Assembly (NCBI RefSeq): GCF_900184245.1
Contig: NZ_FXXB01000007.1
Span: 1-64,000, forward strand
Direction of reading: 5' to 3'
Length of the DNA stretch: 64,000 nt
From: Brachybacterium massiliense
Lineage (GTDB): Bacteria > Actinomycetota > Actinomycetes > Actinomycetales > Dermabacteraceae
Shown here: one piece after another, positions 52,453 to 64,000 of the stretch
How the letters are laid out: every line of letters starts with the position of its first letter
Numbering within the stretch: the first letter of the stretch is position 1
The notes under the pieces: model-generated
Told to the model about the DNA's origin: nothing
The model's input: only the letters and a program-made list of their open reading frames with translations
Database searches by the model: none
Translations under genes and position numbers: made by a program

Positions 52453-55347
52453 TCAGCGGCCGGTGAGACTCCATGCGTCCTCCCCCTGCTCCTCCTCGCC
52501 GTCGTCGTAGTAGTCGACCGACGCCTCCGAGCCGTCATCGGCCAGCGGGTCGCTCGCGTAGCGGTCGTCGCTGTCGCCCGTGACCTGCTCGGGCTCCCCC
52601 TCCTCGAGGTCGACGGCCTGGTCGGCGCCGTAGGGCTCCTCGCCCTCGCCGGCGGGGACGTCCTCGCCGCGGATCCGCGCGATGGCGGTGCCGAGGTCGT
52701 CGGGGTGGACCAGCACGTCGCGCGCCTTGGAGCCCTCGGAGGGGCCCACGATCTCGCGGGACTCCAGCAGGTCCATCAGGCGGCCTGCCTTCGCGAAGCC
52801 CACACGCAGCTTGCGCTGCAGCATCGAGGTGGAGCCGAACTGCGTGGTGACCACGAGCTCGGCCGCCTGCAGCAGCACGTCGAGATCGTCGCCGATGTCG
52901 TCGTCGATCTGCTTCTTGGCCGCGACGACGGTGACGTCCTCGCGGTAGTTGGGCTTCATCTGGGTCTTGACGTGGTCGACGACCTTGTGGATCTCCGACT
53001 CGTTGACCCAGGCGCCCTGCACGCGCATCGGCTTGGCCTTGCCCATCGGGTGGAAGAGGGCATCGCCCTGCCCGATCAGCTTCTCCGCGCCCACCGCGTC
53101 GAGGATGACGCGGGAGTCCTGCAGCGAGGAGGTCGCGAAGGCGAGGCGGCTGGGCACGTTGGCCTTGATGATGCCGGTGACGACGTCGACCGACGGGCGC
53201 TGGGTGGCGAGGATCAGGTGGATCCCCGCCGCGCGCGCCAGCTGGGTGATGCGCTGGATCGAGGCCTCGACGTCGCGCGGGGCGACCATCATGAGGTCGG
53301 CGAGCTCGTCGACCACGACCAGCAGGTACGGGTACGGGGCCAGGCGGCGCTCGCTGCCCGGGGGCACCTGCACCTCGCCGGCGCGCACGGCCTTGTTGAA
53401 GTCGTCGACATGCTTGAAGCCGAACATCGCCAGGTCGTCGTACCGGGCGTCCATCTCCTTGACCACCCATTCGAGGGCCTCGGCGGCCTTCTTGGGGTTG
53501 GTGATGATCGGAGTGATCAGGTGCGGAATGCCTTCGTAGATGGTGAGCTCGACCCGCTTGGGGTCCACCAGCACCATCCGCACCTCCTCCGGGGTGGAGC
53601 GCATCAGGATCGAGGTGATCATCGAGTTCACGAAGCTCGACTTGCCGGCACCGGTGGCACCGGCGACCAGCAGGTGGGGCATCTTGGCGAGGTTCGCGAC
53701 GACGTAGCCGCCCTCGACGTCCTTGCCCACGCCCATCACCAGCGGATGCTCGTTGCGGCGCGCGACCGGGCTGCGCAGCACATCGCCCAGCGCGACCGTC
53801 TCGCGGTCGGTGTTGGGGATCTCGATGCCGATGGCCTTCTTGCCGGGGATCGGCGAGAGGATGCGCACGTCGGCGCTGGCCACGGCATAGGAGATGTTCT
53901 TGTCCAGGGCCGTGACCTTCTCGACCTTGGTGCCGGGGGCGAGCTCGACCTCGTAGCGCGTGACCGTCGGCCCGCGGGAGAAGCCGACCACCTCGGCGTT
54001 GACGTTGAACTGCTCGAAGACCTCGCCGAGAGCGGCGACCACGTGGTCGTTGACCTCGGAGCGGGTCTTGTGGGGCGGGCCCTCCAGCAGGAAGGACGAC
54101 TCCGGCAACGTGTAGACGATGTCCCCGGCGAGCTCGAGCTGCTCGCCGGCACGGGGCAGATCGCCCATCGGCGGCGGCACCAGCTCCGCCTTCTCCTCCG
54201 GCTTCGGCTCGGCCTTCTCGGGCCGCTTCGCGGCCGGCACGGGCTTGGTGGGGGCGGGCGCGGAGGCGGCGGAGCTCTTCGCGGAGTTCGGCATCGGGGT
54301 GGTCGGGGCGCCGGCGCCGGGGAAGGTCTTGGCGCGGTGGTTCTCGTCCTCGACGACGTCGTAGACCTCGGCGGAGTCGGCCGGGGCGCCACGGCGTCCG
54401 GAGGAGCGGCGGCGCTTGCGGCCCGCTGCGGCCTCCTCGTCGACGCCCTGCTCGAAGGCCTCGTCGCCGGCGTAGCCGAACTTCTCGTGGTCGCGCTCGG
54501 CCTCCTCGGCCTTCTCGCGGCGGGTCCGGCGGCGGGGGCGCGCCGCAGGCTGGGCCTGGGTGGCCTGGTCGTGGACGGCCGGGTCCGCACGACGGGGGCG
54601 CAGGCCGAAGGCGACGCGCTCCTCGTCCTCCTCCTCGCTGCGGCCGACGGCGACCTCGTAGACATCGCGCAGGCGCGAGGGGATGGACTCGACCGGAGTG
54701 GCGGTGAGCACCAGCACGCCGAAGGCGATCAGGAGCGCATGGATCACGATCACCGCGACCGGCGGCAGCAGCGCCTCGAGGGGCGCGGCGGCGAGATAGC
54801 CGAGCACGCCGCCTCCCCGGGCGAGCGCGTCGATGCCGTCGGCCGGGGCGGGCAGCCGCGCGGAGACGGACGCGATCGCGGAGATCGCGGTGAGCAGGAT
54901 CGCGATGCCGAGCGCGATGCGCGTGTTGGCGCGCACCTGGTCCGGGCGGCGGAACATCCGCATCGACCAGCCCGCCGCCAGCAGCGGGATCACCATCGAG
55001 GAGATCCCGAAGGTGCCGGCCACCACGGTGTGCACGGCGCCGAGCACGGGACCGGAGGACTGCCACCACTCGACGACCGCGACCAGCGTCGCGATCATCA
55101 GCAGGAACAGCGCGTAGCCGTCGCGCCGCTGCTCGGGCGCCACCACCCAGCGCTGCACGCCGATCGAGCGGATCAGACCGCCCACCATGCGCGCGATCGC
55201 GAGATAGCCGGAGCGCACTGCGCGCACCGGCAGAGGGAGCGTCGAGGGATCGTTCGCCCCGGAGCCCGTGGTGCGCGATGTGCCGGCAGCAGCGGTCCGG
55301 GAGGAGCCTTTCGACGCACGTGCGGGGGAAGACGTACGTGTCGCCAT
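52453..55347 (-). CDS. ftsK: DNA translocase FtsK/SpoIIIE
   Basis: Septal dsDNA pump of 964 residues. Four membrane segments fall within residues ~75-220; an Ala/Pro/Glu-rich linker runs to ~390; the motor domain has Walker A GATGAGKSSFVNSM and VVVDELADLMMVA (Walker B); a C-terminal winged-helix gamma domain (TSMLQRKLRVGFAKAGRLMD) reads orienting sequences. The ATG lies seven bases after TAGCAT. The acidic C-terminal tail of ~90 residues is unusual in length. Confidence 0.96.
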   Translation of the reverse strand: MATRTSSPARASKGSSRTAAAGTSRTTGSGANDPSTLPLPVRAVRSGYLAIARMVGGLIRSIGVQRWVVAPEQRRDGYALFLLMIATLVAVVEWWQSSGPVLGAVHTVVAGTFGISSMVIPLLAAGWSMRMFRRPDQVRANTRIALGIAILLTAISAIASVSARLPAPADGIDALARGGGVLGYLAAAPLEALLPPVAVIVIHALLIAFGVLVLTATPVESIPSRLRDVYEVAVGRSEEEDEERVAFGLRPRRADPAVHDQATQAQPAARPRRRTRREKAEEAERDHEKFGYAGDEAFEQGVDEEAAAGRKRRRSSGRRGAPADSAEVYDVVEDENHRAKTFPGAGAPTTPMPNSAKSSAASAPAPTKPVPAAKRPEKAEPKPEEKAELVPPPMGDLPRAGEQLELAGDIVYTLPESSFLLEGPPHKTRSEVNDHVVAALGEVFEQFNVNAEVVGFSRGPTVTRYEVELAPGTKVEKVTALDKNISYAVASADVRILSPIPGKKAIGIEIPNTDRETVALGDVLRSPVARRNEHPLVMGVGKDVEGGYVVANLAKMPHLLVAGATGAGKSSFVNSMITSILMRSTPEEVRMVLVDPKRVELTIYEGIPHLITPIITNPKKAAEALEWVVKEMDARYDDLAMFGFKHVDDFNKAVRAGEVQVPPGSERRLAPYPYLLVVVDELADLMMVAPRDVEASIQRITQLARAAGIHLILATQRPSVDVVTGIIKANVPSRLAFATSSLQDSRVILDAVGAEKLIGQGDALFHPMGKAKPMRVQGAWVNESEIHKVVDHVKTQMKPNYREDVTVVAAKKQIDDDIGDDLDVLLQAAELVVTTQFGSTSMLQRKLRVGFAKAGRLMDLLESREIVGPSEGSKARDVLVHPDDLGTAIARIRGEDVPAGEGEEPYGADQAVDLEEGEPEQVTGDSDDRYASDPLADDGSEASVDYYDDGEEEQGEDAWSLTGR

Positions 55348-55354
55348 GGGAGCG

Positions 55355-55360
55355 ATGCTA
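55355..55360 (-). promoter_or_regulatory. -10 element, leaderless ftsK
   Basis: TAGCAT on the minus strand, seven bases before the ftsK ATG. Confidence 0.5.
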
Positions 55361-55428
55361 CATTCCGGCCCGCCGCTCAGCCGGGAAGCGGGGCGTGCGG
55401 CCTCGTCACACCGGCAGCTCGCTCACGT

Positions 55429-55540
55429 CTCGCGCCTGCTGTCCTGTCTCCTGCCGCTCGTGCCTCGCAGCACGTCGACCAGGACTCGCGCCTGCTGTCC
55501 TGTCTCCTGCCGCTCGTGCCTCGCAGCACGTCGACCAGGA
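55429..55540. repeat. 56-bp exact tandem duplication between rnj and ftsK
   Basis: Two head-to-tail copies, 55429-55484 and 55485-55540, appear identical. Each contains a CGTGC-CTCGCA-GCACG hairpin and an outer GTCCTG/CAGGAC pairing. A shorter repeat (CTCGATCACGA, CTCGATCACC) adjoins it and spans the RNase J stop codon. Confidence 0.9.
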
Positions 55541-55545
55541 CTCGA

Positions 55546-57240
55546 TCACGACTCGATCACCAGAGGGAGGATCATCGGGCGGCGGCGCAGGCGCTGACCG
55601 ACGTACCGTCCCACCACGCGCCGCATCACCTGCTGGAGCTGGTGGGTGTCGCGGCGCTCGGTCTGCTCCGCGACCGCCTTCTCGAGCGCCTTGACGATCT
55701 CGGGGCGGATCCTCTCGAACACGGCGGCGTCCTCCGCCACACCCCGGGCGTGGATCTCGGGCCCCGCGATCACGGCGCCGGTCTCCGAGCTGACCACGGC
55801 GAACAGCGAGATGAAGCCCTCGTCGCCGAGGATGCGACGGTCCTTGAGGTCCGCCTCGGAGATCTGGCCGACGCTCGAGCCGTCGACGTACACGTACCCG
55901 TTGGGCACGGCGCCGACGACGCTCGCGACACCGTCCTTGAGATCCACCACGTGGCCGTCCTGGGCCAGCACGATGCGCTCGCTCGGCACGCCCGTGGCCT
56001 CGGCGAGCTTGCCGTTGGCGATCAGGTGGCGCACCTCGCCGTGGACGGGCATCACGTTGCGCGGACGCACGATGTTGTAGCAGTACAGCAGCTCGCCGGC
56101 GCTCGCGTGCCCGGAGGTGTGGACCTGGGCGTTGCCCTTGTGGACCACCTCCGCGCCCAGCGCCATCAGTCCGTTGACCACGCGGAAGACGGCGTTCTCG
56201 TTGCCGGGGATCAGCGAGGAGGCGAGGATGACCACGTCGCCCGGGCCCACGCTGACGCGGTGGTCGCGATTCGCGATCCGGCCCAGCGCCGCCATCGGCT
56301 CCCCCTGGCTGCCGGTGCACATCAGCACCACCTGGTCATCGGGCAGGTCGTCGATCCGCTTGACGTCGATCACGGTGTCGTCGGGGATGTCGAGATAGCC
56401 GAGCTCCGAGGCGATCCCCATGTTCCGCACCATGGAGCGGCCCACGAAGGCGACCTTGCGGCCGTGCGCGGCGGCCGCATCGAGCACCTGCTGGACGCGG
56501 TGGACGTGGCTCGCGAAGGACGCGACCACGATCTTCTGCCTCGCGCGGGCGAAGATGCCGTCCAGGGTGGGGCCGATCTGCTTCTCGGCGACGGTGAAGC
56601 CGGGCACCTCGGCGTTGGTGGAGTCGGTCATGAACAGATCCACGCCGGCCTCGCCGAGCCGGGCGAAGGCGCGCAGATCCGTGATCCGGCCGTCCAGCGG
56701 CAGCTGGTCCATCTTGAAGTCGCCCGTGTGCAGCACGGTGCCGGCCGGGGTGGACACATGCACCGCGAGGGCGTCGGGGATGGAGTGGTTGACCGCCACG
56801 AACTCGCAGTCGAAGGGGCCGAGGCTGCGCTGCTCATCCTCCGCCACGACGTGGGTGACGGGTCGGATGCGGTGCTCCTTGAGCTTCGCCTCGATGAGGG
56901 CGAGCGTGAGCTGACTGCCCACCAGCGGGATGTCGGGGCGTCGGCGCAGCAGATAGGGCACCGCACCGATGTGGTCCTCGTGGCCGTGCGTGAGCACGAT
57001 CGCCTCGATGTCCTCGAGCCGGTCGGTGAGGATCTCGAAGTCCGGCAGGATCAGGTCCACCCCGGGCTGGGAGTCCTCCGGGAAGAGCACGCCGCAGTCG
57101 ATGACCAGCAGCCGTCCCTCGAACTCGAGCACCGCCATGTTGCGGCCCACATCACCGAGACCGCCGAGCGGGATCACCCGGAGTGTTCCGGGGGCGAGCG
57201 CGGGAGGCTCCTCGAGACGCTGGGAGAAGACGGTGGACAT
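55546..57240 (-). CDS. rnj: Ribonuclease J
   Basis: Metallo-beta-lactamase/beta-CASP RNase of 564 residues with 5'-3' exonuclease and endonuclease activity in mRNA and rRNA processing. The zinc motif is HGHEDH (85-90); other motifs are LHTGDFKMDQLP, DSTNAEVPGFT, MCTGSQGEPMAAL (beta-CASP) and SGHASAGELL. The ATG at 57240 follows GGAGGTGCTG; an upstream GTG at 57246 is less likely. dapA lies 18 bases upstream, the conserved dapA-rnj pair. Confidence 0.96.
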   Translation of the reverse strand: MSTVFSQRLEEPPALAPGTLRVIPLGGLGDVGRNMAVLEFEGRLLVIDCGVLFPEDSQPGVDLILPDFEILTDRLEDIEAIVLTHGHEDHIGAVPYLLRRRPDIPLVGSQLTLALIEAKLKEHRIRPVTHVVAEDEQRSLGPFDCEFVAVNHSIPDALAVHVSTPAGTVLHTGDFKMDQLPLDGRITDLRAFARLGEAGVDLFMTDSTNAEVPGFTVAEKQIGPTLDGIFARARQKIVVASFASHVHRVQQVLDAAAAHGRKVAFVGRSMVRNMGIASELGYLDIPDDTVIDVKRIDDLPDDQVVLMCTGSQGEPMAALGRIANRDHRVSVGPGDVVILASSLIPGNENAVFRVVNGLMALGAEVVHKGNAQVHTSGHASAGELLYCYNIVRPRNVMPVHGEVRHLIANGKLAEATGVPSERIVLAQDGHVVDLKDGVASVVGAVPNGYVYVDGSSVGQISEADLKDRRILGDEGFISLFAVVSSETGAVIAGPEIHARGVAEDAAVFERIRPEIVKALEKAVAEQTERRDTHQLQQVMRRVVGRYVGQRLRRRPMILPLVIES

Positions 57241-57258
57241 CAGCACCTCCGGGGCAGA

Positions 57259-58167
57259 TCAGATGAGTCCGGCCGCCTCGAGGGCGGCTTCGAGCATGCG
57301 CAGCTGGTCGGTGTCGGCGGCGATGTGGGGGCCGCGCATCGTGGCATGGGGCAGCACGCCCTGCAGGTGCAGCGCCGCCTTCGCGGCCACCGCTCCGGGC
57401 ATGTGATTCATGATCGCCTCGACCACGGGCACCAGGCGCAGGTGCGCGGCGCGGGCGGCGGCGAGGTCGGAGCGGTCGACGGCGTCGATCATCTCCTTCT
57501 CGAGCTCGCCGGCGACCTGGCCCACCACGGACACGATGCCGGACGCGCCGATGGACAGCCAGGGCAGGTTCAGCCCGTCCTCGCCGGAGTAGTAGACGAG
57601 ATCGGTCTGCGCCATGATCCGCGAGGCCTGGTGCAGATCGGCCTTGGCGTCCTTGACCGCCTGGATGCGCGGGTTCTCCGCCAGGCGCATGAGCGTCTCG
57701 TAGGCCAGCGGGATGGCGCTGCGCCCGGGGATGTCGTACAGCATCACCGGCAGGTCCGTGGAGTCCGCGATCGCGGTGGTGTGCGCGATGACCCCGGCCT
57801 GGCTGGGCTTGGAGTAGTACGGGGTGACGATCAGCAGGCCGTCCAGGCCCAGCTTGGCGTGCTCGCGCGCCAGATCGATCGAGTGGGCGGTGTCATAGGT
57901 GCCCACCCCGGCGACCACCGTGATCTCGGGTCCGACGGCGTCGCGCACCGCGCGCGCCAGCTCGAGCTTCTCCACGTCGGTGAGGGTGGGCGCCTCGCCG
58001 GTGGTGCCCGAGACGATGATCGTGTCGTTGCCGTGCTCGGTGATGTGGACGGCCAGCTTCTGGGCGGCATCGAGATCGACCTTGTGGCCGTCCTCGGTGA
58101 GCGGGGTGACCATCGCGGTCCCCACCGTGCCGAAGGGCCGCGCGGGGCGCGTGTCGATTCCGGTCAT
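57259..58167 (-). CDS. dapA: 4-hydroxy-tetrahydrodipicolinate synthase
   Basis: First committed enzyme of diaminopimelate and lysine synthesis; 302 residues, TIM barrel. The Schiff-base lysine is K172 (QAVKDAKAD), the catalytic tyrosine lies in LYDIPGRS (143-150), and GTTGEAPTL and VAGVGTYDT are intact. The ATG follows GGGAGGACAGC. thyX, which often lies between dapB and dapA in related genomes, is not here. Confidence 0.96.
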   Translation of the reverse strand: MTGIDTRPARPFGTVGTAMVTPLTEDGHKVDLDAAQKLAVHITEHGNDTIIVSGTTGEAPTLTDVEKLELARAVRDAVGPEITVVAGVGTYDTAHSIDLAREHAKLGLDGLLIVTPYYSKPSQAGVIAHTTAIADSTDLPVMLYDIPGRSAIPLAYETLMRLAENPRIQAVKDAKADLHQASRIMAQTDLVYYSGEDGLNLPWLSIGASGIVSVVGQVAGELEKEMIDAVDRSDLAAARAAHLRLVPVVEAIMNHMPGAVAAKAALHLQGVLPHATMRGPHIAADTDQLRMLEAALEAAGLI

Positions 58168-58222
58168 GCTGTCCTCCCGATGATGCTCTGTTGCCCGGAG
58201 CCTAGACCAGGCAGGACCCTGC

Positions 58223-60973
58223 TCACCGCTGTGACGCGATGCCGAGATCGACGAGGATCGCGAGCGGGGTGCGCTGGCGTCCCTGACCCAGCGGATTGTC
58301 CGCGAAGGTCGCCTCGAGGGTCTCGTGCGGGGTGCTGACGTCGGAGCCCAGGACGTTGCGCCCGATGTCGTTGGCGTCCATCACCACGGTGCCCGCGAAG
58401 CTGTCGCGGAGGGAGGCGGGGATGTCGGCGCCGCGGATCGCCGCGGAGATCCGGGCGGAGACGGCATCCGGGTCCTTCGGCGGGAGCTTGGCGGAGACGT
58501 TGGAGGGGAAGGCCGAGTACGGGGTGGGGCCGTCGATCGCCCGCACGTTCGCGCCGACGACCTCGTAGAACACTCCCCTGCGACCCACCACCTTGCCGGC
58601 GGCGCCCGCGGCGGAGGCGACGAGCACGCGCGGCAGGCCGACCTCGCGGATCGCGAGCTCCATCGTGGTGGGATCGCCCAGGCCGATGCCGGCCGGGGTG
58701 CGGCTGACGAAGCGGCTGAGCACCCTGGCCGAGCGGCGCGGCCTGACCTCCCAGGTGAACCAGGAGCGGCCCTGGGCGATCGCGATGATCTTCTCGCTGA
58801 TCACGAAGTACCAGGGCGATCCTGCGGGCACGGCGTCCTCGGGCAGGCTCGCGGCGAAGCGCTCGACGCGCTCACGGGCGAGCTTCTCGACGTCGTCCCC
58901 GCGGGCCACCAGCTCGGTCTGCAGCGGGAAGCGCCGCCAGGTGCGGCCGTCGGCCTCGGAGACCAGGTCCAGCTCCTTGTCCGGGTTGGCGACGTAGTCG
59001 CTCTTGGCGACGGTCTCCTCCTCAGCGGCGGGAGCGTGCGCGGCGACGGCGGCCGGCGCCTCGGCGGGCTGCTCGGCGCTGCCGCCGAGGGACTGAGTCG
59101 CACCCTCGGCGTCGTCGAAGAAGGTGCGCATCCACAGCTCGACGTTCAGCAGGCGCCAGAACATCAGCGTGCCGTGGTTCTCGGGGTGGGCGATGTAGTC
59201 GTCGAACAGGGCCAGCACGCTCGGCGCGTCGAAGAACGGGCGCGAGGCGAAGGACTCGGAGGCGAAGATGTCCCGCAGCTGCGGGGCGATCGAGCGGAAC
59301 CACTCTCCCTCGGGGGTGGTGAAGCCGATCTTGTTGCGGCGCTTGGAGATCATGTCGGGCAGGATGCCGTCCATCGACTCGCGCAGGATCCGCTTGTTCC
59401 AGCCGTCGTGGATGATCGCGGACTCGTCCAGGGAGAACAGGAACTTCAGCAGCTCCTTGTCCACGAAGGGCACGCGCCCCTCGATGCTGAAGCGCATGGT
59501 GTTCTTGTCCTCGTAGCGCAGCAGCGAGGGCAGGGAGGAGCGGAAGGTGTCCTCGAGCAGCCGCTCCTTGAGGTCGTCCTGGACGGAGCTGACCTTCTCG
59601 GAGCTGTGCTCGGCCACGAAGCCCGAGTTCAGCAGGGCCTCGATCGGCACCGAGGTGCGGCCGGAGAACTTGGTGCGGGCGAGCTTGCGCAGGATGTCGC
59701 GGGAGCCGACGACCTCGCTGGCGAGCTCCTTGAACCGCTTCTGCCGTCGCAGCTGGCGCAGGTAGACGTAGAAGTAGGGGTTGTACCCGGCCATCATCTC
59801 GTCCGCGCCCTGGCCGTCCAGCAGCACCGTGACGTGCTGGCTGGCCTCGCGCATCACCGCGTACTGCGCGTAGGGGCCGGTCGAGATGATCGGCTCCTCC
59901 TGGGTGCGCACGAAGTCGTGCAGGTCCTCGAGGAAGGCGGCGGGCTGCGGGGTGATCTTGTGCGGCGTGATCTGGCCGCGGTAGTCCTCCAGCAGCGCGT
60001 CCACATAGCGCTCCTCGTCGTTCGAGGAGTTCGGGAACACGGCCGAGAAGGTGTTCTGCCGGGTGCCGACGGCGCTGTAGCCCTCGTCCTCGGGCTGCTC
60101 GCGCAGCTGGCGCGCGATGACCGCGGCGACCGCCGAGGAGTCCAGGCCGCCCGAGAGGGAGGTGCCCACGGGGACCTCGGACTGCAGGCGCAGGCGCACC
60201 GACTCCTGGAACCGTTCGCGGTACTCCTCCACGACCGACTCGTCGTAGGCACGGCTGGGGCGCGCGGCGATCTCCCGCAGCTCCTCCTGCAGGCGCGTGA
60301 AGGAGGAGATCTCGGTGCCGTCGGCACGGATCTCGAGCACCTCGCCGGCCATCAGACGCCGCACTCCTTCGAAGAAGGTCTGCGAGTCATCGTCCTGGAC
60401 CCGGAACTTCAGGTACCGGTAGACGGCGCGGTGATCCGGTGCGGCCTCGAACACCCGGGCGGCCAGCAGCGAACGGATCTCGGAGCCGAACAGCACCTTC
60501 GGGGACTCGCCCGTCCCGGAGGCGGGGTCGATCCAGTAGTAGAGCGGCTTGATGCCGAAGTGGTCGCGGGCGATGGTCACCGAGCCGGTGTGCGCGTCGT
60601 GGATCGCGAAGGCGAACATGCCGTTGAAGCGGTCGTAGGCGGCGGTGCCCCACTCCGCGTGGGCCTCGAGCAGGACCTCGGTGTCGGAGTCCGTGCGGAA
60701 GGTGTGCCCCAGCTCCTCGAGCTCGGCGCGCAGGTCGAGGTAGTTGTAGGTCTCGCCGTTGTAGATGATCGTGTAGCGGCCGTCCGCGGTGGTCATCGGC
60801 TGGGCGCCGTGCTCGCGATCGATGATCGCCAGCCGGCGGTGGGCCAGTCCGGCCTGGTCGACGACGAAGAGGCCTTCGCCGTCGGGTCCGCGATGGGCCA
60901 GCGCGCCGCTCATCCGGCGGGCGATGCCCTCGGTCTCAGCACCGAATCCGTAGGTACCGGCGATTCCGCACAT
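58223..60973 (-). CDS. Asparagine synthetase fused to a CofE-like (F420-0 glutamate ligase) domain
   Basis: A 916-residue protein. Residues 1-620 form a complete AsnB: nucleophile Cys2 (MCGIAGTYGF), NGETYNY, and the synthetase PP-loop SGGLDSS (274-280), with FSIEGRVPFVD and a KRRNKIGF segment later. It should make asparagine from aspartate, ATP and glutamine. A Pro/Ala-rich linker (630-660) leads to a second domain (~676-916) resembling the coenzyme F420-0:L-glutamate ligase family: SRTPAGIGLGDPTTMELA, RAIDGPTPYSAFPSN, VMDANDIGRNVLG and ADNPLGQGRQRTP. Ordinary AsnB ends near residue 600-650. The ATG follows AAGGACTCC. No F420 biosynthesis gene is nearby, so the substrate of the second domain is unknown. 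Confidence 0.85.
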   Translation of the reverse strand: MCGIAGTYGFGAETEGIARRMSGALAHRGPDGEGLFVVDQAGLAHRRLAIIDREHGAQPMTTADGRYTIIYNGETYNYLDLRAELEELGHTFRTDSDTEVLLEAHAEWGTAAYDRFNGMFAFAIHDAHTGSVTIARDHFGIKPLYYWIDPASGTGESPKVLFGSEIRSLLAARVFEAAPDHRAVYRYLKFRVQDDDSQTFFEGVRRLMAGEVLEIRADGTEISSFTRLQEELREIAARPSRAYDESVVEEYRERFQESVRLRLQSEVPVGTSLSGGLDSSAVAAVIARQLREQPEDEGYSAVGTRQNTFSAVFPNSSNDEERYVDALLEDYRGQITPHKITPQPAAFLEDLHDFVRTQEEPIISTGPYAQYAVMREASQHVTVLLDGQGADEMMAGYNPYFYVYLRQLRRQKRFKELASEVVGSRDILRKLARTKFSGRTSVPIEALLNSGFVAEHSSEKVSSVQDDLKERLLEDTFRSSLPSLLRYEDKNTMRFSIEGRVPFVDKELLKFLFSLDESAIIHDGWNKRILRESMDGILPDMISKRRNKIGFTTPEGEWFRSIAPQLRDIFASESFASRPFFDAPSVLALFDDYIAHPENHGTLMFWRLLNVELWMRTFFDDAEGATQSLGGSAEQPAEAPAAVAAHAPAAEEETVAKSDYVANPDKELDLVSEADGRTWRRFPLQTELVARGDDVEKLARERVERFAASLPEDAVPAGSPWYFVISEKIIAIAQGRSWFTWEVRPRRSARVLSRFVSRTPAGIGLGDPTTMELAIREVGLPRVLVASAAGAAGKVVGRRGVFYEVVGANVRAIDGPTPYSAFPSNVSAKLPPKDPDAVSARISAAIRGADIPASLRDSFAGTVVMDANDIGRNVLGSDVSTPHETLEATFADNPLGQGRQRTPLAILVDLGIASQR

Positions 60974-61067
60974 GGGAGGAGTCCTTTCGAGGGGGCCGAC
61001 TGCCGTCCACGATCTGCGGTCGAGCGAGGAGGGCGGGACGCAGGCCGCGTCTCCGACGGCTCCGCGC

Positions 61068-61097
61068 GCACGGACCGGGTTCGGCCGTGCGAGCCTA
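61068..61097 (-). promoter_or_regulatory. Putative asnB promoter -10 and 5' hairpin
   Basis: TAGGCT (61097-61092, minus strand) would start transcription near 61085. A hairpin at 61068-61090 (GCACGG and CCG pairing with CGG and CCGTGC around GGTT, one bulged A) would then lie at the 5' end of a ~112-nt leader. Confidence 0.4.
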
Positions 61098-61140
61098 TCA
61101 ACGCCGGGGGGCGCGCTCCGCGGCAGACGCGGCGTGAGTC

Positions 61141-61869
61141 TCAGCTGCCGCGGCGCGACAGCACCAGCTCCGCGCCGTCGGCGCGCACTTCGAGGTCATC
61201 CAGCGACGTGACCAGCGCATCTGCGAGAGGCGCGAGGTCACCGGCGGGCGTGGTGCTGGTCACTGCGATGGTGCTCGCCCCCGCCGCTGTGCCGGAGCGC
61301 AGGCCGCCCAGGGAGTCCTCGATCACGATGCACTGCTCGGGCGCGACGCCGACCCGCTCGGCGCCCAGCAGGTACGGCTCGGGGTGCGGCTTGCCGTGGG
61401 AGACCTGATCGGCGGTGACCAGTCCCTCCGGGACCGCCAGCCCGGTGCGTGCCCAGCGGGCCTCGAACAGCGGGCGGGTGCAGGAGGTGACGATGGTCCA
61501 GGTGGCGCGTCCGAGCTGCTCGGCGGCGCCGTCGAGCTCGCGCAGCAGCCGCTCTGTGCCCGGCAGGACCGCGATCTCCTGGACGTCCTCCAGCTCGAGC
61601 TCCTCGATCCGACGGTGGGCGGCGTCGAGCTGCTGCGCATCCAGCTGCGGCAGCATCTCCCCCAGCACCTGCCGGGCCGGCTTGCCGTGCTGCTCGGGGC
61701 CGAACTCGAGATCCGTGCCCAGCTCGCGCAGCAGCTGGTTCCATGACCGCTCGACCGCCGGGCCGGAGTCGATGAGGGTGCCGTCCATGTCCAGCAGGAG
61801 GGCCGAGGCGCGCATCGGCAGGGGGCGCGCGGCGGACGGGGATCCTGAAGCGGAGGGGGCTGAGCTCAT
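61141..61869 (-). CDS. HAD-superfamily hydrolase, beta-phosphoglucomutase-like
   Basis: A 242-residue HAD phosphatase: motif I LLLDMDGTLIDS, motif II VTSCTRPLFEARWA, motif III KPHPEPYLLGAERVG and motif IV IVIEDSLGGLRSG, with a helical cap in between. It resembles small sugar-phosphate phosphatases (2-deoxyglucose-6-phosphatase/GPP type). The start could be the ATG at 61869 or one at 61815, directly before motif I; the first 18 residues are low complexity. Its 3' end lies upstream of the asparagine synthetase gene on the same strand, 167 bases apart. Confidence 0.88.
   Translation of the reverse strand: MSSAPSASGSPSAARPLPMRASALLLDMDGTLIDSGPAVERSWNQLLRELGTDLEFGPEQHGKPARQVLGEMLPQLDAQQLDAAHRRIEELELEDVQEIAVLPGTERLLRELDGAAEQLGRATWTIVTSCTRPLFEARWARTGLAVPEGLVTADQVSHGKPHPEPYLLGAERVGVAPEQCIVIEDSLGGLRSGTAAGASTIAVTSTTPAGDLAPLADALVTSLDDLEVRADGAELVLSRRGS

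Positions 61870-63441: not shown

Positions 63442-64000
<559 letters not shown>

Follow-up and report, generated by a model that had tools for sequence, protein, structure and literature searches.

A gene on the minus strand of a 64,000-nucleotide stretch of Brachybacterium massiliense DNA (contig NZ_FXXB01000007.1, positions 1 to 64,000; hereafter the window) encodes an AsnB-type amidotransferase fused to a CofE-like domain (58223..60973; 916 codons plus stop). Across the related fused proteins, the AsnB half has been altered repeatedly while the ligase half has stayed constrained, so we hold with good confidence that the lasting function lies in the ligase half.

Translation of the minus strand from 60973 to 58223 gave 916 residues followed by a stop, which bore out the extent of the protein, its Cys2 and the SGGLDSS (274-280), DANDIGRNVLG (866-876) and DNPLGQGRQ (892-900) stretches recorded in a first-pass annotation made from the sequence alone. 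All parts of the gene given below lie on the minus strand, and gene starts are our own calls. The protein opens with a class II glutamine amidotransferase (glutaminase) domain that includes Cys2 (residues 1-171, 60461..60973; PF13537 1.5e-43, PF13522 1.4e-42) and continues with an asparagine-synthase (ATP-pyrophosphatase) domain (residues 250-616, 59126..60226; PF00733 8.1e-71), within which the sequence shows the PP-loop SGGLDSS at 60134..60154. With Cys2 and the PP-loop present, all six scored glutaminase positions intact and 416.9 bits against TIGR01536 over residues 2-551 (cut-off 267.1), the AsnB half is intact, as had been proposed. A linker with a Pro/Ala-rich stretch inside it, read from the sequence (residues 617-676, 58946..59125), leads to the CofE-like amide-ligase domain (residues 677-916, 58226..58945), which was assigned from an AlphaFold2 (AF2) model, Foldseek and a Z-score match to Archaeoglobus fulgidus CofE.

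The domain was present in 35 of 47 Dermabacteraceae genomes; 33 of the 35 carriers encode it within an open frame of 804 amino acids or more, and G003 (496 aa) and G015 (462 aa) within a shorter one. Conservation across the family rules out a frameshift or assembly join as the origin of the fusion, which is therefore genuine. The fused gene is frame-broken at G003:C1:2943978-2946721 and G027:C1:1191456-1192237; folC is also broken in both genomes, making assembly indels the likely cause there.

Change in the two halves of the fused protein

Catalytic positions of the AsnB half (six glutaminase and seven synthetase positions, with roles that we presume from E. coli AsnB) were scored in one MAFFT alignment of 52 fused proteins, the window protein included, and a protein was counted as intact when its synthetase positions were unchanged and no more than one of its glutaminase positions had changed. 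Two proteins cut by contig ends (L065 and L104), called lost from an identity of <50%, were left out, leaving 50 scorable; L089 lacks Cys2 in its gene call, yet was counted as intact. Under this scheme 32 of the 50 proteins were intact and 18 were altered at AsnB catalytic positions, with synthetase positions changed in 10 of the 18. Mapped onto the ligase-half tree, the pattern required a minimum of six changes (seven with the two contig-cut rows and seven for the synthetase positions alone), a count that leaves the direction of change unfixed.

The ligase half retained SEK..AI.QGR, DANDIGR and DNPLGQ in 52/52 fused proteins. The named-contig loci, the best 80 of 294 (L054-L133), were found with a pattern containing D-x-N-D-x-G, so that conservation of this stretch in the fused proteins, and in the 43-member alignment described below, is partly by construction. 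In the 31 intact rows other than the window protein itself, identity to that protein averaged 67.6% in the AsnB half and 68.9% in the ligase half; in the 20 rows called lost, the averages were 40.3% and 63.8%, respectively. The ratio of non-synonymous to synonymous change (dN/dS), taken from simple pair counts, differed in the same direction between the AsnB and ligase halves of three lost pairs: 1.03 vs 0.26 for L059 with L064, where the AsnB value resembles near-neutral drift, 0.22 vs 0.05 for L098 with L099 and 0.40 vs 0.11 for L093 with L094. Two Terrabacter-type pairs gave 0.30 vs 0.06 and 0.22 vs 0.10, and L084 with L087 gave 0.13 vs 0.06. Five of eight intact pairs likewise had no faster ligase half, among them L085/L089 (0.32 vs 0.10), indicating that a somewhat relaxed AsnB half also occurs outside the decayed rows.

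Two sets of observations weigh against a lasting role for the ligase half alone. Eight of the 18 altered proteins (Terrabacter and kin) had changed in glutaminase positions only and kept both Cys2 and the PP-loop, and a loss of activity in these eight is a guess from sequence. The ligase half was, moreover, slightly faster in three of the eight intact pairs, with AsnB and ligase dN/dS of 0.17 vs 0.18 for the window with L054, 0.15 vs 0.20 for the window with L057 and 0.10 vs 0.27 for L055 with L060.

The decayed AsnB half of L099 was modelled at a middling predicted local distance difference test score (pLDDT) of 67.1 and matched AsnB-type folds (E 1.7e-16 to 7ylz). Since an AsnB-like fold is kept in this model, it seems that the half either is retained as a scaffold or, lying at the gene's 5' end, is hard to lose. 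The first-pass annotation had suggested that amidation and the ligation of a candidate donor (Asp, Asn or Glu) could be coupled through the fusion; as a general rule this is not supported, as AsnB catalytic positions are altered in more than a third of the proteins (18/50) with the ligase half kept, though the two halves may cooperate in the window protein, in which both are intact. The recurrent decay of AsnB beside a constrained ligase tells which half to assay first.

The C-terminal domain and its relation to CofE

The predicted structure leaves little doubt that the C-terminal domain has the CofE fold. An AF2 model from 43 sequences (pLDDT 86.2; predicted template modelling score 0.85) brought five A. 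fulgidus CofE chains to the top of a Foldseek search at E 7.8e-9 to 1e-6, with the next row at E 0.28, and a second structure aligner returned CofE entries at Z 13.7, 13.4 and 13.1, with the next entry at Z 4.6. The best superposition of the predicted model on CofE spanned 188 residues at a root-mean-square deviation of 3.6 (Z 13.7).

Sequence comparison placed the domain at a greater distance. Against PF01996, the C-terminal half of the window protein scored 22.2 bits (E 1.1e-4), under the Pfam cut-off of 25, whilst 41 of the 43 members of a wider alignment that includes the window protein (A2) matched this family at E<=0.01 (best 2e-14), so that superfamily membership holds. The kinship with CofE asserted in the first-pass annotation is consequently upheld by the predicted fold and by the relatives, and the profile search that it proposed for the window domain itself fell short. 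Three relatives reached 20.6-29.3 bits against TIGR01916, for which the CofE equivalog cut-off is 180.65 bits; the window domain matched no NCBIfam model at E<=1, and a sequence search of the C-terminal half against solved structures returned no significant match. A profile of 14 sequences hand-picked from protein-search matches (A1; the weak matches L044, L050 and L052 were left out) also fell short of significance against solved structures (E 0.18), which counts against the assignment, with CofE occupying all three best rows. When profiles were compared with one another, using seven CofE sequences, no more than 46 columns were aligned, at a probability of 87 and E 4.1e-6.

Four motifs characterize the domain, with the following residues invariant in 14/14 sequences of A1: SEKIIAIAQGR (residues 726-736, 58766..58798; E727, K728, G735 and R736), located in the region that the A1 profile matches to residues 13-68 of CofE; IDGP (residues 813-816, 58526..58537; D814 and G815); DANDIGRNVLG (58346..58378; D866, N868, D869 and G871); and DNPLGQGRQ (58274..58300; N893, L895 and Q897). 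By our reading, the SEK..QGR, IDGP, DxND and NPLGQ stretches follow the same order as their counterparts in CofE and in the N-terminal domain of FbiB (PF01996, TIGR01916). D866 was aligned with CofE D150 in the A1 profile alignment, within a weak second domain, and D814 was equated with CofE D109 by our reading; we take D109 and D150 to be metal-binding aspartates of CofE.

Despite this likeness, the domain is a subfamily separate from CofE, with motifs of its own and scores far under the equivalog cut-off. From D150 to P214 CofE takes 64 steps, compared with 37 here (A2 positions 209 to 246), a span 27 residues shorter, and the computed structural alignment stops at CofE residue 222, before the F420-stacking R234. 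A structural study lists the contacts of CofE to F420 as G153-C155, F92, a long swapped hairpin and, from the partner chain, R234 (PMC10861534); we infer that the shortened D150-P214 stretch corresponds to this F420-binding hairpin.

Genome content points in the same direction. Neither CofD (TIGR01819, E<=1e-10) nor CofH (TIGR03551, E<=1e-20) was matched in any of the 47 Dermabacteraceae genomes (0/47 each), in searches whose controls were three F420-making archaea, positive for both, and included no F420-making actinobacterium. PF01933 gave a single region per genome in all 47 (in two pieces in G027); the region identified individually, that of the host genome, is YvcK. With no match to CofD or CofH in 47/47 genomes, F420 as the acceptor is very unlikely, and we are highly confident that the CofE-like domain does not serve F420. 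The non-F420 acceptor anticipated by the first-pass annotation is therefore likely, and its remark that no F420 genes lie nearby extends to CofD and CofH genome-wide, with the qualification that a true CofE-domain gene is found elsewhere in the genome.

This second gene (G000:C5:107505-108095; L001, L158) matched CofE at 144.2 bits over profile positions 4-218 of 218. True CofE domains are encoded outside the fusion in 41 of the 47 family genomes, all 41 lacking CofD and CofH matches, so that this gene would be a further CofE homologue with an acceptor yet to be assigned. Four genomes (G038, G039, G041 and G043) carry the fused-type domain without a true CofE match. The fold and family name of the fused protein would suit a role as F420-0 glutamate ligase in its host, or action on F420 taken up from outside; given the lack of CofD and CofH matches, the separate true CofE and the apparently missing F420-contacting segment, we rejected the host-ligase role, and regard the explanation in either form as highly improbable. 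Members of the subfamily are nonetheless prone to being named F420-0:glutamate ligase through the superfamily model, though the Dermabacteraceae show no CofD or CofH.

Glutamylation of folate by the CofE-like half would follow the precedent of the chlamydial FolC2: CT611 (COG1478) is reported to complement an E. coli folC mutant (PMC1971073), making it a CofE homologue that serves a non-F420 acceptor. A formate-tetrahydrofolate ligase gene upstream at one Bacillota locus (L117) would fit such a role. FolC2, however, replaces a missing folC, whereas folC was found in 47/47 Dermabacteraceae genomes; the absence of any NCBIfam match to the window domain and the 21.2 bits of a Bacillota relative against the folate-ligase model TIGR04132, of 350 needed, also speak against it. 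We consider folate a quite improbable acceptor.

The kinds of protein involved are known already, namely the CofE superfamily, AsnB and CofE homologues with other acceptors such as FolC2 (PMC1971073). A literature search that covered few subscription papers found no description of an AsnB-CofE-like fusion or of this subfamily.

Distribution and AsnB partners

At wider taxonomic scales, the domain was detected in 28 of 248 genomes of the order (one weak match, G069, E about 1e-3), in 14 of 296 genomes of the class (two weak matches, G069 and G359, E about 1e-3) and, with the A2 profile, in 24 of 396 genomes of the phylum, covering 20 of 237 genera. Among the best 80 named loci, 51 (L054-L104) had AsnB similarity in the same frame and came from Brachybacterium, Dermabacter, Helcobacillus, Intrasporangiaceae, Dermacoccaceae, Actinomycetaceae and unplaced bins; the 29 without AsnB in frame comprised 17 Bacillota by title and 12 of Microbacterium type. 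The result is a conserved putative amide ligase in Dermabacteraceae, Intrasporangiaceae, Dermacoccaceae, Actinomycetaceae, Microbacterium, Clostridia and other actinobacterial families. Two contigs titled Candidatus Microthrix and Stenotrophomonas maltophilia (L110, L111) show Microbacterium-type neighbourhoods and are probably misbinned or contaminating. A viral or plasmid origin was set aside: 41 pattern matches in viral contigs yielded none confirmed, and no relatives were found in plasmids or, for the two proteins tried, in PHROGs; phage records were not searched.

Fusions also occur in the distant families f36, f67 and f120, and in f77 (L187) the AsnB and CofE-like genes are separate, run in the same direction and abut, with the ATG directly after the TAA (0 bp gap). 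Partner AsnB proteins of f77, f36, f67 and f120 were 41-44% identical to the window AsnB, whereas two unfused AsnB proteins from the window's own family were 31% and 27% identical. As the far partners are thus closer to the window AsnB than its unfused relatives in the family, one AsnB subfamily seems to travel with the domain and, by sequence, to have been co-inherited with it in an old pairing, and the tree is compatible with one fusion or several. Within Dermabacteraceae, six genomes that carry the domain had no AsnB match at E<=1e-20 (G012, G018, G022, G038, G039 and G041), and in two more (G019 and G033) the AsnB match fell below the cut-off.

Among solved structures, the full window protein best matched 7ylz (TsnB9, annotated as a hydroxyamidotransferase) at E 1.3e-55, ahead of E. 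coli AsnB at 1e-40. TsnB9, which we take to belong to a natural-product context, trichostatin synthesis, is hence, by sequence, the nearest relative of the AsnB half with a solved structure, and for the decayed half the nearest by fold as well; unlike the fused protein, its solved chain of 623 residues has no room for an extra domain. On the strength of this match, the protein could act like TsnB9 and convert a specialised metabolite to its amide or hydroxamate. The Brachybacterium gene, in contrast, lies among housekeeping genes (dapA at 15, ftsK at 14 and rnj at 12 of the 15 loci L054-L068), and its spread across many families resembles that of primary metabolism, so that we judge the specialised-metabolite role improbable.

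Proposed chemistry and acceptor

Taken as a whole, the reading that we favour, in which an AsnB-subfamily amidotransferase is joined to a non-F420 CofE-fold amide ligase with a wall component as its most plausible acceptor, stands at about an even chance. Ligase chemistry in the C-terminal half, taken by itself, is probable. From the fold and the conserved acidic residues, the ligase half would work as CofE does: with a nucleoside triphosphate and metal bound at the interface of a dimer, it would phosphorylate a carboxylate of the acceptor and then couple an amino acid or other amine to that carboxylate. Two CofE studies describe a nucleotide that phosphorylates the carboxylate beside metal ions at the dimer interface, followed by attack of the amine (PMC10861534, PMC8498797). 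In the window lineage the AsnB half has all checked residues, appears to be active and may supply or assist the ligase; in several other lineages it has probably lost its activity and persists as a scaffold. In an intact AsnB, glutamine is the source of ammonia and ATP serves to activate a carboxylate.

The acceptor itself, judged from gene neighbours, would most plausibly be a peptidoglycan precursor or other wall carboxylate, which we offer tentatively. Downstream of the fused gene by 55 bp lies dapA (57259..58167, minus strand; PF00701 230.7 bits), followed by genes annotated in the window as ribonuclease J (rnj, 55546..57246, minus strand) and ftsK (52453..55347, minus strand); upstream are a HAD-type phosphatase gene (61141..61869, minus strand; PF13419 78.9 bits) and, further upstream, an open frame for the C-terminal part of dapB (63442..63969, minus strand; PF05173 100.5 bits). 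Of the 16 loci with Brachybacterium in the title, 15 (L054-L068; L104 is the exception) have dapA within about 1 kb downstream on the same strand; loci L054-L068 carry dapA in 15/15, ftsK in 14/15 and rnj in 12/15. Wall-related genes recur at other loci, with sepF and divIVA near the f77 pair and GlmS upstream in 4/17 Bacillota loci.

Genes of the MurJ (lipid II flippase) family were observed by or near standalone CofE-like genes of several actinobacterial families, at L150-L153, L193, L196, L199, L197 and L200, most of them in tail-to-tail orientation. A MurJ gene is tail to tail with one copy in 4/4 f38 genomes, one of which (G401) has two further copies without MurJ in the stretches read. 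For 18 of the 25 phylum-scale matches, from 17 genomes, the surrounding stretches were fetched, and MurJ was present in the stretch of 5/17 further genomes (G623, at one of two copies, G894, G770, G883 and G793), at 1-2 kb or with genes between in G883 and G793. It was found in 0/80 control windows (L054-L133) after matches of <25% identity or <100 columns were dropped, a stricter filter that would also drop the MurJ of L197 (24.6%), itself confirmed.

This wall theme of dapA/dapB, divIVA/sepF, MurJ and GlmS is a hint, a lead rather than a demonstration, and several observations tell against it. Each wall neighbour is limited to one or few lineages: dapA was found in 0/36 of the fused loci L069-L104, the close MurJ genes (f38, f89 and f81) are tail to tail and form no operon, and the CofE-like genes beside them form one clade, maybe reflecting one event. 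At one Intrasporangiaceae locus, guaA, PIG-L and glycosyltransferase genes take the place of wall neighbours, and some Bacillota copies stand by genes for formate-tetrahydrofolate ligase, SRP54, UvrC and DAHP synthase with no evident link; SURF1 and ClpB are further neighbours without a theme. The wall chemistries of domain-bearing hosts presumably differ as well. We also take the domain to occur in genera of other wall types, which weighs on the D-Glu/D-Asp bridges of Brachybacterium walls as its specific product. For Dermabacteraceae, one paper gives A4-gamma peptidoglycan with meso-diaminopimelate (mDAP) (PMC6090031).

A second explanation that draws on the same neighbours is peptidoglycan amidation in the manner of LtsA/AsnB, in which the AsnB half would amidate mDAP and the CofE-like half would be a non-catalytic helper that binds a nucleotide or precursor. 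The window protein resembles AsnB/LtsA (TIGR01536) in its complete glutaminase and synthetase domains and is the sole AsnB of the host genome (TIGR01536, E<=1e-20); dapA and dapB lie near the gene, and mDAP is reported to be amidated by AsnB of Listeria and LtsA of Corynebacterium (PMC8554201). It differs from these enzymes in its fusion to a CofE-like domain and in having relatives altered at catalytic positions (18/50). A helper role for the CofE-like half also sits poorly with the conservation of that half where AsnB changes, with its occurrence without AsnB in frame at 29 of the best 80 named loci and with its persistence in six family genomes without an AsnB match (E<=1e-20), and we regard this alternative as unlikely.

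A more specific version of the wall-acceptor reading that we favour, put forward a shade more cautiously than the acceptor class itself, is a CofE-fold peptidoglycan-precursor ligase, common to actinobacteria and Clostridia, that would drive the joining of an amino acid or amine to a stem-peptide carboxylate (of UDP-MurNAc-peptide or lipid II) with a nucleotide, would act beside AsnB amidation in some lineages and would outlive AsnB where the latter serves as a scaffold. If a wall precursor is indeed the acceptor, this would constitute a new wall-modifying step.

In Microbacterium-type loci, a sigma factor gene lies upstream in 12/12, and 10/12 are flanked on the opposite side by an ATP-grasp gene (PF14397). 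At several of them (L108, L112, L120, L121 and others), the start of the CofE-like gene overlaps the end of the sigma gene, and one or two PF14397 ATP-grasp genes stand alongside. ATP-grasp as a general partner was rejected for the present host, whose genome gave no PF14397 match. A scan for promoters and terminators around the fused gene found none and is uninformative at this G+C. Two very long plus-strand frames, at 52705-58338 (1877 aa) and 58325-61408 (1027 aa), run antisense to real genes of the window and are probably a high-G+C effect rather than genes. Elsewhere, a CofE-like gene is directly beside a class-III aminotransferase gene (L191) or an Orn/Lys/Arg decarboxylase gene (L195), neighbours that may point to an amine substrate.

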